DNA of 47,860 nt from an uncultured Litoreibacter sp. Lineage in GTDB: Bacteria > Pseudomonadota > Alphaproteobacteria > Rhodobacterales > Rhodobacteraceae. Below are positions 1-6,294 of the stretch, piece after piece. The stretch lies in contig CALHHY010000104.1 of assembly GCA_938030665.1 (NCBI GenBank), positions 1-47,860 of the forward strand. Reading direction: 5' to 3'. Numbering within the stretch: position 1 is the first letter of the stretch; the number at the start of each line of letters is the position of its first letter. A program made the position numbers and the translations under genes. A model generated the notes under the pieces. The model did no database searches. It saw nothing but the letters and a program-made list of their open reading frames with translations, and had not been told where the DNA came from.

Positions 1-705
1 GCGGGTGAAGTGGTCGATATCGCCCGGCTTGGTCAGGCCAACAACGGGGTGGATCAGCAGGTTGGCCTGCGCTTCCTTGGCGGCGCGGAATGTCAGTTCC
101 TGATGCGCGCGGTGCAGCGGGTTGCGGGTCTGGAAGGCCACAACCTTGCGCCAGCCCATTTTGCGGAAATAGGCGCGCAACTCATTCGGGGTGTCGCGGC
201 GGGCGCGGAAATCGTAATGGACGGGCTGCTGGATGCCAGTGACGGGTCCGCCCAGATAGATTTTGCCGGCCTGATTGTGCAGGTAGTTGACGGCTGGATG
301 CGCGCTGTCATCGGCACCGAAGACCATTTTGGCCTCATGCGCTTTGTTCGGCTCCCAACGGTCGGTGACGGTCATGGTGCCAAGGATCACACCTTCCTGG
401 TCGCGCAGGGCGATGTCCTGGCCGATTTCCAGCGAATTGGCGAAATCTTCCGACACATCCAGCGTGATCGGCATGGGCCACAGCTCACCGGTTGTCAGGC
501 GCATTGTGTCCACGACGGAGTTGTAATCGGTCTCGCTCAGGAAGCCTTTCAGCGGGTTGAAGCCGCCATTCATCAGCAGCTCAAGATCGCAAATCTGGCG
601 CGGTGTCAGGTCATGCGATGTCAGCTCGGCGGCCTCCACCTTAAGCTTTTGCGCGCTGTCGTATGAGACGAACAGCTCGGGGATCGGGGCGAGGTTGTTT
701 TGCAT
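1..705 (-). CDS. sat: Sulfate adenylyltransferase (ATP sulfurylase), N-terminal part, truncated by window edge
   Basis: This enzyme makes adenylyl sulfate (APS) from ATP and sulfate, the first step of sulfate activation in the cytoplasm. The 235 codons in the window cover the N-terminal PUA-like domain (start MQNNLAPIPELFVSYDSA) and the beginning of the catalytic domain. The nucleotide-binding motif QTRNPLHRAHQ lies at 93-125 in window coordinates, and the frame is still open at base 1. In this bacterial group the protein is often a bifunctional sulfurylase/APS kinase of about 570 residues; whether the kinase is present lies outside the window. ATG at 705 matches the usual family start and has a weak AGGA about nine bases upstream. 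However, the same frame continues upstream without a stop through a DNA-binding domain (706-1065), so the protein may be longer. Confidence 0.93.
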   Translation of the reverse strand, partial: MQNNLAPIPELFVSYDSAQKLKVEAAELTSHDLTPRQICDLELLMNGGFNPLKGFLSETDYNSVVDTMRLTTGELWPMPITLDVSEDFANSLEIGQDIALRDQEGVILGTMTVTDRWEPNKAHEAKMVFGADDSAHPAVNYLHNQAGKIYLGGPVTGIQQPVHYDFRARRDTPNELRAYFRKMGWRKVVAFQTRNPLHRAHQELTFRAAKEAQANLLIHPVVGLTKPGDIDHFTR

Positions 706-1065
706 CAGTTTGGTCCTGTCACTGAAGGGAGTAAGGCCCGAGGCACTGCCGGTCAGCTCTGCATGCAAAGCGTCATATTCGGCCAGTTTCCGGGCAAGAA
801 AAGCGTTTGTAAGCCGGTTTTTCTCCGACGCGCCGCGGGTTGTGAGGGAGTAGGCGAAGCGCTGGCGCTTATCCGGCCCCGACCGTTTGGTCACTTTGAC
901 AAATCCGGCATCCGCGGCGGCGCGCAGCAATGCGTTCAATTTACCAAGCGAGACGTCAATCGCGGCCGCCGTCGCCCGTTGCGACGCGTCTGCAGCCAGA
1001 TCAAGCTGGCGCAGAAGCCGGAAGCGCAGGTCTTCCTCTTCGCTTATGGGGGCAGGCTTTGACAC
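706..1065 (-). CDS. EPS-associated MarR-type winged-helix domain, in frame with sat
   Basis: The 120 codons from GTG at 1065 encode a small winged-helix protein that resembles the MarR-family EPS-associated transcriptional regulators. It has an N-terminal helix around EEDLRFRLLRQL, a recognition region around VSLGKLNALLRAA, a wing near GFVKVTKRSGP, and a C-terminal helix containing ARKLAEYDALHAEL. That last segment is very characteristic of the family. There is no stop codon after it: a linker of about 17 residues (GSASGLTPFSDRTKL) runs straight into the sat start codon. The reading frame is therefore either a regulator-enzyme fusion or an overlapping pair with an internal start. Upstream of the GTG the frame is closed by a TGA inside a palindrome at 1088-1101. 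The family identification is from memory; the open frame is read directly. Confidence 0.8.
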
Positions 1066-1087: not shown

Positions 1088-1134
1088 GTTCACGGGTGAA
1101 CGTATCGCGCTCTGGGTGTGTTCACGCAAGAACA
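1088..1134. promoter_or_regulatory. Two GTTCACG palindromes 32 bp apart (candidate operators)
   Basis: A perfect palindrome, GTTCAC-gg-GTGAAC, occupies 1088-1101. A second, TGTTC-acgcaa-GAACA, occupies 1119-1134. Both contain GTTCACG, at 1088 and 1120, exactly 32 bases apart, so the sites fall on the same helix face about three turns apart. They sit 23 to 69 bases before the GTG of the MarR-type gene, where an autoregulatory MarR operator would be expected. Binding is inferred. Confidence 0.5.
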
Positions 1135-3044: not shown

Positions 3045-3545
3045 ATGGCAATTTCTAAACTTGACGATATCGACCGCAAGATCCTTGCCGAATTGCAGGC
3101 CGATGGCCGGATGACCAATGTTGAGCTCGCGAAGCGGGTGGGGATATCGGCGCCGCCTTGCCTGCGCCGGGTGCGTACGCTGGAAGAGTCGGGCTTTATC
3201 AAGGGCTACCATGCCGAGGTTGAAGCGCGCGCCCTTGGCTTTGAGGTTCAGGTCTTTGCCATGGTCGGACTGCAAAGCCAGGCCGAAGCGGACCTAAGCG
3301 CCTTTGAGGCGCGCTGCCGCGACTGGCCGCTTGTACGCGAATGCCACATGCTGAACGGCGAGGTGGACTTCATCCTGAAATGCGTGGCCCCGGACCTGTC
3401 GAGCTTTCAAAGCTTCCTGACGGAGCAGCTGACCTCTGCCGAGAATGTGGCCAGCGTGAAAACCTCGCTCGTGATCCGCGGCGCAAAGGACGAGCCCGGC
3501 GTGCCGTTCGACGTGGTTGAAGAACGGCTGAGCCAGATCAGCTAG
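3045..3545 (+). CDS. Lrp/AsnC family transcriptional regulator
   Basis: This 166-residue protein has an N-terminal helix-turn-helix (KLDDIDRKILAELQADGRMTN then LAKRVGISAPPCLRRVRTLEESGFI). The C-terminal RAM/AsnC ligand-binding half follows from about residue 65, including VRECHMLNGEVDFILKCVA. Such proteins form octamers and respond to amino acids. ATG 3045 is preceded by AAAGGGATGTGG and gives the standard family N-terminus; an upstream ATG at 2982 would add 21 unlike residues. The gene is divergent from trxB, and an Lrp-type gene beside trxB is a common arrangement in this group, so trxB is a likely target. Its stop codon overlaps that of the convergent Hint gene within GCTAGC. Confidence 0.93.
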   Translation: MAISKLDDIDRKILAELQADGRMTNVELAKRVGISAPPCLRRVRTLEESGFIKGYHAEVEARALGFEVQVFAMVGLQSQAEADLSAFEARCRDWPLVRECHMLNGEVDFILKCVAPDLSSFQSFLTEQLTSAENVASVKTSLVIRGAKDEPGVPFDVVEERLSQIS

Positions 3546-4333
3546 CCGGCCTCCCGCAACCTTTCCACCTCGTAGCTTGTCAGATGCGGGATCAATTCAG
3601 CACCGAATTCATGCAGGCTTCGGATATGCGGAAACAACCGTAGCAGCCCGTGCATCATCCCCTGATCACGCAGCGCCGCCGATAGCGGAGCCGGGTGGAA
3701 ACTTTCCACCTCCAGCCCGTTCACATTGATTGTGGCCTGGCGGTCGAAGGCGAGGTTGAAAAACGTCACCGACGAGACCGGAGACACCGATATCACCTGC
3801 ACCCCGTCTTCGAAGGCCCGGATCGGCATATAGGCTGGGTTGCTTTCGGCCTCTTCCCCGCCGCCCTGACGCATCAGGATGTGGGCGCGGTGGGACAGCA
3901 TCACGTCGGCGCGTGGCTTGGCCAGCCCGAAGGCATCGGGCATCACGCGCAACAGCCGCGGCTTAGGTGAGGCCGCAAATTCCTGGGCATTGACGGTAAA
4001 GGAGCCGACCCAACGCAGTATCACCGGGCCGAATTCGCTGGTCAGCACGCGCATGCCGGGGATCAGGTCCTCCACCGCCACCGGCCCGTCCTCTGTCAAA
4101 ACCACTGTCCCTCTCGCCAGATGATCGCAGGCGGCCTCAATCACGGGGCTGGCCGGGGCGCGCATTGTGTCAAACTGCGCACGGCCATCTGCACCCAGCC
4201 AGGCAATTTCGTAGTTGCGGTCAGCATAGTGACGTTTCGATGGAGCACCGCGGGCGGCAAGCTGGTTGAAATCATAGCTCCGTCCGGAGCTTACAGAGGC
4301 GTAGTCGGATAGGGCGGAGCGGGGAACATTCAT
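3542..4333 (-). CDS. Hint (Hedgehog/intein-type) domain protein
   Basis: This is a 263-residue protein. A roughly 65-residue N-terminal segment precedes a Hint-like domain that starts at LARGTVVLTEDGPVAVEDL (residues 72-90). It continues with PGMRVLTSEFGPVILRWVG and an SHRAHILM block typical of roseobacter Hint_2 proteins. Active Hint domains begin with a cysteine or serine nucleophile just before A-R-G-T. Here that place is taken by histidine 71, with Cys69 two residues earlier, so self-splicing is doubtful. There is no signal peptide. ATG 4333 has AAGGA six bases upstream. The role is unknown; many such proteins accompany secreted calcium-binding proteins, but none is seen here. Confidence 0.82.
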   Translation of the reverse strand: MNVPRSALSDYASVSSGRSYDFNQLAARGAPSKRHYADRNYEIAWLGADGRAQFDTMRAPASPVIEAACDHLARGTVVLTEDGPVAVEDLIPGMRVLTSEFGPVILRWVGSFTVNAQEFAASPKPRLLRVMPDAFGLAKPRADVMLSHRAHILMRQGGGEEAESNPAYMPIRAFEDGVQVISVSPVSSVTFFNLAFDRQATINVNGLEVESFHPAPLSAALRDQGMMHGLLRLFPHIRSLHEFGAELIPHLTSYEVERLREAG

Positions 4334-4599
4334 AAGGGGTCCTTCTACCAGCTAAGGTCTTGTATTTGGTCCCCACCGGCGCAACACGAAGCTCGGGAAG
4401 CCCCCGTATGCGCATGTTGCTAGAGTATGCCTTCCCACCAAAAAATCAACTTTTTGCGCCGATTATGGTCCTGCAAGGCTGCAGTAATCGTGATCTTCCA
4501 ACATTGTTTCTGCGCTTCGCCATGTGCCCAAAGATCGCCACCTTGCTGCCGCGCTCGATTCGACCGCTCTGGCGAGGCCGCAGCCCGCGTGATAAGCCC

Positions 4600-6294
4600 A
4601 TGGCAGCAAAAGTGAGCCATGTCAGAATGACCCCCGACCTGATCAAGAAGACCTATGCAAGAGCACTGAAAGCCCAGCAAGCAGGCCGCTGGACAGAAGC
4701 GGAAAAAGGCTACGCCCGCATCATCGCCGCCCGCCCCGGCCTGGCAGAGGCGCAGTTCAACATGGGGCGGGTCTTGGCGGCGCAGGTCCGATTGACCGAC
4801 GCCGCCCGGCATTTCGAGGCCGCCCTGCGCGCGAAACCCGGCCAGCCGGAGATTTGGCTGGCCTATCTGGACATGGCGTCCCGGCACCCCAAACCTGACA
4901 ATCTGGAGAAGCTGTTGGGACGCGTTGGCAGCGGGCTTGATCACCTGCCTGACATCAGCTTTTTGCGGGGGCTCGTGGCGGCCCGGCGGGGCGATGCGGC
5001 GCAGGCTGAAACTTTGATCGGGGCGGCAATCGCCATGGGGCTGAAATCCGCCCGCGCCCAGACGGAGCTGGGGTTGCTGCACCTCCAAGCGGGCGAGGAT
5101 GTGAAAGCCATGGCCGCCTTTGACGCGGCCCTCGCGCTCAACCCCAAGGACGCGTTCGCGCTGATCAGCAAGGCGGGTTTGCTGCGGGGCCTTGGTAAAA
5201 CCGACGAGGCATTGGCCTGCGCCACAGCGGCGATTTCAGCCGATCCGGCAACGGCGCAGCATTACTATACCTACGCATCGATCACCAAACTCAAATCCGG
5301 CGACCCGATGATCGCGCAGATGCAAAAGCGCTTTGCCGCCACGCGCAAGGGGGATCTGGGCCGGATCTACCTAGGTCACGCCTTGGCCAAAGTGATGGAA
5401 GAGACCGGCGCGCAAGACCAGATGTTTCGCTTCCTGAGTGCGGCCAATCAAGTGGCAGCGGACCGGTTCCCCTACGACCATGACGCCGACCGGCAGGCCG
5501 TCGCGAAGGCGCAGGAAACCTTCGAAGGGCTGTCGGCAACGCCCGACAGCGACGCCCCCCCCGATTCTCGTCCGCGCCCAATTTTCGTGACGGGCATGCC
5601 GCGCTCCGGCACGACATTGGTGGAACAGATCTTGGCGTCCCATTCCGCGTGCACCGGGGGCGGGGAGCTGGGCCTGCTCAGCTCCGCTTTGGCCCCGGTT
5701 TTGGAAGGTGAGGAGCGCCCTGCGGCTGACTTGGCTGCAGCGCTCAGAAATGCCGGGGAGACCTACCGCCACCAGCTTTCCGCGCGGTTTGGGGCTACGG
5801 GCTGCGTCACTGACAAATCAATCAGCACCTATGCCTCGATCGGGTTTGTGCGCCACGCGCTGCCGGACGCCAAGATCATCGTGATACGCCGTAACCCGGC
5901 GGATAACGCCCTGTCGATCTATAAGAACCTTTTCAAACCGGGGTCGCATCGCTACGCGACGGATCTGCGCGCCATCGCCCGGTTCTGCGCCCTGTTCGAG
6001 GCCCAGCTGGACTTCTGGCGCGACCAGATGCCGGGCAGCTTTTATGAGCTGCAATATGAGGCGCTGATCGCCGACCCCGAGCCTCAATCGCGCGCCTTGG
6101 TCGCCGCAGCCGGGCTGGAATGGGAGGACGCCTGTCTTGCCTTTTACGACACCAGCAGGCGGGTGGACACGCTGTCATCCGCGCAGGTGAGGCAACCGAT
6201 CTATCGCTCGTCAGTGGGTGGGTGGGAGCGGTACCGGGACGACTTGGCCACGTTCATTGAGGAATATGCGCAGCTTACCGGCCAAACGCTTTGA
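4600..6294 (+). CDS. TPR-repeat sulfotransferase
   Basis: The first half (to about residue 310) consists of tetratricopeptide repeats, for example YARALKAQQAGRWTEAEKGY and MAAFDAALALNPKDAFALI. The second half is a PAPS-dependent sulfotransferase: the 5'-phosphosulfate loop FVTGMPRSGTTLVEQIL and the 3'-phosphate site KIIVIRRNPADNALSIY are both visible. It should transfer sulfate from PAPS to a protein or glycan acceptor that I cannot name. The start is uncertain. ATG 4600 gives 564 residues; GTG 4612 and ATG 4627 are alternatives and none has a strong ribosome-binding site. Sequence from 4360 to 4599 is open but looks non-coding. A hairpin at 6327 follows. Confidence 0.88.
   Translation: MAAKVSHVRMTPDLIKKTYARALKAQQAGRWTEAEKGYARIIAARPGLAEAQFNMGRVLAAQVRLTDAARHFEAALRAKPGQPEIWLAYLDMASRHPKPDNLEKLLGRVGSGLDHLPDISFLRGLVAARRGDAAQAETLIGAAIAMGLKSARAQTELGLLHLQAGEDVKAMAAFDAALALNPKDAFALISKAGLLRGLGKTDEALACATAAISADPATAQHYYTYASITKLKSGDPMIAQMQKRFAATRKGDLGRIYLGHALAKVMEETGAQDQMFRFLSAANQVAADRFPYDHDADRQAVAKAQETFEGLSATPDSDAPPDSRPRPIFVTGMPRSGTTLVEQILASHSACTGGGELGLLSSALAPVLEGEERPAADLAAALRNAGETYRHQLSARFGATGCVTDKSISTYASIGFVRHALPDAKIIVIRRNPADNALSIYKNLFKPGSHRYATDLRAIARFCALFEAQLDFWRDQMPGSFYELQYEALIADPEPQSRALVAAAGLEWEDACLAFYDTSRRVDTLSSAQVRQPIYRSSVGGWERYRDDLATFIEEYAQLTGQTL

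Follow-up and report, generated by a model that had tools for sequence, protein, structure and literature searches.

A winged-helix domain fused to a bifunctional ATP sulfurylase, with a candidate internal start, in the Rhodobacteraceae

Some enzymes carry a DNA-binding domain of their own. PutA, BirA and NadR are examples of such trigger enzymes, in which enzyme and autoregulator share one chain. The locus described here resembles them by sequence alone: a winged-helix (HTH) domain is joined to ATP sulfurylase in a single open frame. It differs from them in its pathway and in its type of HTH, and a conserved internal start predicts that an enzyme free of the DNA-binding domain is made from the same gene.

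A comparable arrangement can be found in BzdR, where, according to the available excerpts of PMC3602430, an HTH is linked to a shikimate-kinase-like domain and loss of the ancestral kinase activity was essential to becoming a regulator. In both cases a linker joins an HTH to an enzyme-like domain, but in the present gene the catalytic motifs are intact. Two proteins per frame are described for Salmonella in the excerpted text of PMC11005335, where N-terminal proteoform pairs arise through alternative in-frame starts. The pair proposed here is instead deduced from conservation across genera, and only one form would contain the DNA-binding domain. Enzymes with their own DNA-binding domain and in-frame proteoform pairs are already known. 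The literature searched, which consisted of open-licence papers, yielded no published HTH-bearing sulfurylase.

Each of the two parts has described relatives. The HTH resembles the MarR_EPS regulators (TIGR04176) in sequence, in its modelled winged helix with a long C-terminal helix, and in the GTTCN6GAAC palindrome that lies upstream of 12 of 26 stand-alone relatives. It differs from them in being fused to an enzyme, in scoring under the curated cut-off of 88 and in belonging to a clade of fused domains (support 97/90). Three stand-alone loci have polysaccharide genes nearby, whereas the gene studied here does not lie in an exopolysaccharide cluster. The enzyme part, as read in intact relatives, resembles the bifunctional enzymes of model NF004040, of which 2gks is a solved example, over the whole enzyme. 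It differs in the additional HTH and linker of about 120 residues at the N-terminus; unfused relatives lack both the HTH and the palindrome.

The window, the stretch of DNA analysed, is 47,860 nucleotides long and makes up one entire contig of a draft assembly (159 contigs, 82% complete). On its minus strand, a frame of 355 codons (1..1065) runs from GTG 1065 to base 1 without a stop; reading of the frame and profile matches divide it into HTH, linker and the N-terminal part of ATP sulfurylase. The end of the contig truncates the gene at base 1. Intact relatives predict a long product of about 690 residues. The GTG (1063..1065) is the sole ATG, GTG or TTG of the frame ahead of the HTH, and is therefore the only possible start of the long form within the frame. 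It has no AGGA-like Shine-Dalgarno sequence ahead of it.

Such a frame could be produced by a missed stop or a frameshift in one draft assembly, and a gene cut off at the end of a contig from an 82% complete draft would fit this explanation. Its probability is negligible, as the same frame occurs in few-contig assemblies and in many genera, and the relatives refute it. Among relatives' genomes, an HTH query matched 31 of 101 and a sulfurylase query 55 of 101. The fused genes are the 20 strongest HTH matches. Nineteen of them, the window included, can be read through both parts with no stop; the twentieth (G019) is truncated by a contig end. Within the window's genus, a sulfurylase match was obtained in 19 of 21 genomes, of which 12 have the fusion and seven have no HTH match.

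In the wider family, an HTH match was obtained in 141 of 394 genomes (393 genera), and 90 of the 394 carry the fusion, counted as rows of at least 150 bits. The strong rows have frames of at least 690 residues, except for three (267, 363 and 601 residues) that are cut short by contig ends; among the matches listed, the weak rows score at most 112 bits and have frames of 119-335 residues, with the exception of G355. A scan of named genomes returned 325 HTH relatives. The best 80 of these, from Litoreibacter, Phaeobacter, Leisingera, Shimia, Roseovarius, Octadecabacter and others, are referred to as the named loci, and all 79 that are readable run into sat without a stop. The genus representatives and the named loci overlap in part. 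From the named counts L120 (contig end) and L186 or L166 (pattern unmatched, both with AGGA and ATG) were dropped, and L298 was left out of the palindrome count, since a contig end leaves it half a site. One named locus, L170, is titled Nocardioides marinus (Actinomycetota); its fused sat groups with Leisingera with high support, and the assembly is probably misnamed or contaminated.

The original prediction of a stopless frame uniting the two parts is thus upheld by the frame itself and by its relatives: the fusion recurs, and no stop precedes the sat ATG in the 19 near fused genes, the 79 readable named loci or the 90 strong family matches. Interrupted copies would have shown, because the sets were chosen by the HTH alone. 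Two other accounts, a chance open frame and two genes split by a stop, are ruled out: the same frame is found in relatives from many genera, and no fused frame that was read contains a stop. Recurrence of the frame, the internal start, the AGGA and the palindrome across dozens of genera is far beyond chance.

The HTH occupies residues 10-104 (754..1038, minus strand). Its best match is TIGR04176, with 86.4-86.7 bits against a cut-off of 88. The isolated domain scores 86.4 bits (1.2e-24) and the same match in the full frame 83.2 bits; the domain is filed as a relative of the MarR_EPS regulators that lies just short of this threshold. All 19 fused HTHs match the same model. An AlphaFold2 model (pLDDT 82.5) gives the domain a winged-helix fold and a long C-terminal helix, and most of the best hits of this model in Foldseek are regulators of the MarR family (lowest E 8e-5; TM 0.54, scaled to the query length). 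The earlier description of this part as an EPS-associated MarR-like winged helix agrees with the profile, short of its cut-off, and with the predicted fold. A full-length structure prediction had a mean pLDDT of 44.9 and was left unused.

The sulfurylase part (1..705, minus strand) is identified by profile matches and relatives; the predicted short product has 567-571 residues where relatives are intact. Residues 119-355 match NF004040 with 381.7 bits (5.2e-114) against a model threshold of 669, the window's gene being truncated by the contig end. The Pfam domains are PUA_2 and ATP-sulfurylase. Enzymes of this type can be tested for the motifs QxRNPxHxxH and GRDHA and for the kinase P-loop. 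The catalytic motifs and P-loop are intact in all 77 full-length named loci (best 80 of 325), and QTRNPLHRAH is readable in the window. Across 300 random pairs of named loci (best 80 of 325), the HTH has a median dN/dS of 0.12 (262 usable pairs), the linker one of 0.29 (239) and Sat one of 0.07 (300), from which it follows that the HTH is kept as a protein.

The linker comprises residues 107-120 (706..747, minus strand). It has a constant length in 78 of 78 named loci and evolves fast save for one AGG codon. This Arg codon and the following A form AGGA (714..717), a candidate internal Shine-Dalgarno sequence 8 nt ahead of an ATG (703..705) that aligns with the first codon of unfused sat genes. 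At this place every one of the 19 near fused genes has an ATG with AGGA 8 nt ahead. Among the named loci (best 80 of 325), all 78 have AGGA at -12; at the position of the internal start, 67 have ATG, nine GTG, one TTG and one ATA. The ATA belongs to L161, an Octadecabacter MAG, which retains the AGGA. AGGA is also present in 88 of 90 genus representatives, the other two having AGGT and CGGA, and here the codon is ATG in 85, GTG in four and TTG in one. In two of the 90 the linker is one residue shorter, and AGGA and ATG are shifted together. The order ATG > GTG > TTG is also the order of preference among starts of Ruegeria pomeroyi (94%, 5% and 1%) in the available text of PMC3305630. In that same text, which treats N-terminal proteogenomics, the single occurrence of "adenylyltransferase" is in the title of a reference, and "sulfurylase" is absent.

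Evidence for selection on this site can be drawn from its surroundings. Elsewhere in the frames of the named loci, AGG accounts for 28 of 3936 Arg codons (0.7%). AGGA was found at -12 of none of 1192 other in-frame ATGs. Among 51 Arg-dominated columns, the AGG column is the sole one without synonymous variation; of 628 columns, one Asn column likewise has none. On the Sat tree (88 fused rows), 587 parsimony changes fall on the 42 bases of the linker and none on the AGGA, and the linker contains no stop, against about 12 expected had stops been free to occur. Together these features point to a second in-frame start with a Shine-Dalgarno sequence under selection.

Predicted pairing to the 16S 3' end has a mean of -4.2 kcal/mol at the internal start; the long start averages -2.3 and the other ATGs, used as controls, average -2.4, with 17% of them reaching the value of the weakest internal start. 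A stretch of 50 nt spanning the internal start folds with -4.6 kcal/mol, compared with -12.1 in the rest of the gene and -10.0 elsewhere at like G+C; low RNA folding lends weak support to an internal start, as the region is not less folded than its own shuffles (-4.6 vs -3.9 kcal/mol).

Alternatively, the long protein may be the single product, and AGG+A may act as a rare-codon or Shine-Dalgarno-like pause that helps the two domains to fold separately. All 78 named loci (best 80 of 325) have a rare codon where the two domains meet, and it could serve as such a pause. A pause needs no start codon 8 nt further on, however, and the site coincides with the position at which unfused sat genes begin. 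The codons that replace the Met are GTG nine times, TTG once and ATA once, and GTG makes up 41% of Val codons elsewhere in the frames. The pause is accordingly considered improbable. The reading favoured by the conserved internal Shine-Dalgarno sequence and start is the one originally suggested, that two proteins would come from one frame through the ATG at 705.

Two palindromes lie upstream of the gene. The promoter-proximal one, GTTCACCCGTGAAC (1088..1101, minus strand), is conserved in relatives and is the likely operator. The other, GTTCTTGCGTGAAC (1120..1133, minus strand), lies 32 bp from the first and is present in a minority of relatives. By alignment, a -35-like TTGCGT (1124..1129) would lie inside the upstream palindrome and a -10-like GATACG (1101..1106) would abut the proximal one; across the alignment, a -35-like TTG precedes the proximal palindrome by about 27 bp, and these promoter assignments are putative. 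The leader between the palindrome and the long start (1066-1087) is well conserved in the 78 named loci, with the consensus ACACTTTGAGTCG. An AGGA-like Shine-Dalgarno sequence precedes the long start in just four of these 78.

GTTCN6GAAC is found upstream of sat in all 19 near fused genes, all 78 named loci (best 80 of 325) and all 89 genus representatives whose upstream DNA is long enough, whereas it was found within 400 nt upstream of none of 18 unfused sat genes (20 genomes fetched, of which G004 and G023 could not be parsed). A second copy occurs in 13 of the 78 named loci (best 80 of 325), at 26-33 bp and mostly at 32. The twin palindromes of the original prediction are accordingly both real in the window, and it is the single site that is universal. 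Among stand-alone HTH relatives, 12 of 26 have the palindrome within 300 nt upstream, compared with 0.27% of mononucleotide shuffles; of the 14 without an exact copy in that distance, five have one with a single mismatch. These 26 loci (20 from the family listing and six from near relatives) are not all that exist. Within the stretches fetched, none of them has a sulfurylase gene nearby, which also speaks against two genes split by a stop; two five-letter matches to sulfurylase motifs lie in unrelated frames.

The palindrome also stands upstream of stand-alone relatives, which probably makes it the family's type of operator. Its conservation at fused genes, its absence at unfused ones and its sharing with stand-alone relatives point to autoregulation, as had been proposed from the window alone.

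The HTH could also act on further genes, as a wider regulator, for instance of exopolysaccharide genes run by a stand-alone paralogue. Stand-alone relatives have the same type of palindrome, the three stand-alone loci inspected have exosortase, glycosyltransferase and sugar-nucleotide genes nearby, and some fused genomes hold both a fused and a stand-alone HTH. The longer pattern GTTCAN4TGAACA is present at sat in all 11 fused congeners searched, and four of these have it at further sites. In the other seven (G006, G008, G015, G016, G017, G018 and G020), however, it occurs solely at sat, and a wider role is judged unlikely. Of seven unfused congeners, four lack the pattern and three have sites elsewhere. 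A search of the draft genome to which the window belongs found the 14-mer pattern at three places against two control matches per strand, which is no enrichment.

An autoregulatory HTH might activate rather than repress, or the domain might be kept merely as a tag for solubility or localisation. The palindrome overlaps the inferred -10/+1, and the -35 where it is doubled, which is the usual position of a repressor site; a tag would need no palindrome, and the palindrome is absent at all 18 unfused genes. Both possibilities appear distinctly unlikely, and repression by the long form is the preferred reading.

The conserved fusion and palindrome, the candidate internal Shine-Dalgarno sequence and start, and the intact catalytic motifs can be read from the sequences, and they are most likely explained by one gene that makes both a regulator-enzyme and a plain enzyme. 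The original prediction had set autoregulation and two proteins from one frame against each other; each gains support, and the data favour the two together over a choice between them. It is highly probable that sat/cysC is autoregulated in this way. The long product would be a DNA-binding form of the PAPS-making enzyme. It would bind the GTTCAN4TGAAC palindrome overlapping its own promoter and, once bound, would repress transcription of sat. The Shine-Dalgarno-driven internal start would yield plain sulfurylase/APS kinase, both proteins being expected in cells.

Since the second start would make plain enzyme, most enzyme subunits would be free of the DNA-binding domain, and the short form is expected to be in excess because its Shine-Dalgarno sequence is stronger. 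Sulfurylases of this type are oligomers, so that long and short chains may mix. The enzyme part might sense sulfate, ATP, APS or PAPS, feedback by PAPS being a guess. A more tentative extension, for which the chances seem somewhat below even, is a dual-start enzyme and repressor that forms mixed oligomers, in which the number of HTHs per oligomer, and with it DNA binding, would depend on the relative use of the two starts and on occupancy with substrate or PAPS.

If this is true, the entry into sulfate assimilation and the supply of PAPS would, in a major marine group, be controlled directly by the enzyme itself, and a separate regulator would not be involved. The locus would also be a cleanly testable case of dual initiation maintained by selection and visible from codons alone, in genera with isolates such as Phaeobacter, Leisingera and Shimia. 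Annotations of "sulfate adenylyltransferase" in the Roseobacter group may conceal a transcription factor.

The history of the fusion can be followed in both parts. Fused HTHs (26 rows) form one clade apart from the 26 stand-alone relatives, and this single clade suggests that the HTH was captured once. A Sat tree of 88 fused and 18 unfused genes, built without two short sequences (G052 and L156) and without seven named loci from genomes already in the near set, requires 10 changes of state, three of them forced by well-supported branches. At some unfused congener sat genes the gene order is that of fused ones, which suggests later loss of the HTH together with the operator. Joint loss of HTH and operator is not significant on its own (three supported independent contrasts, sign test p 0.25; 10 contrasts on all branches).

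A further arrangement is found in G355 (L332:2065-4203), where a more distant TIGR04176-like HTH is joined to sat by a longer linker. Two palindromes lie upstream, and AGGA precedes the internal ATG by 7 nt. This HTH falls outside the fused clade on a long branch of unsure placement, and G355 may represent an independent fusion; no second fusion of its type was found in the 394 family genomes.

The neighbours of sat in the window are a DUF4399 protein, a Pyr_redox_2 protein that is here named trxB-like, a protein of Lrp/AsnC type and a Hint_2 protein, and they are kept in many relatives. The Hint_2-domain protein (3545-4333) likewise neighbours sat in many of the relatives whose gene order was compared. 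Sulfotransferases use PAPS, the product of the sat/cysC enzyme, and a protein with TPR and sulfotransferase domains is encoded near sat at 4360-6294.
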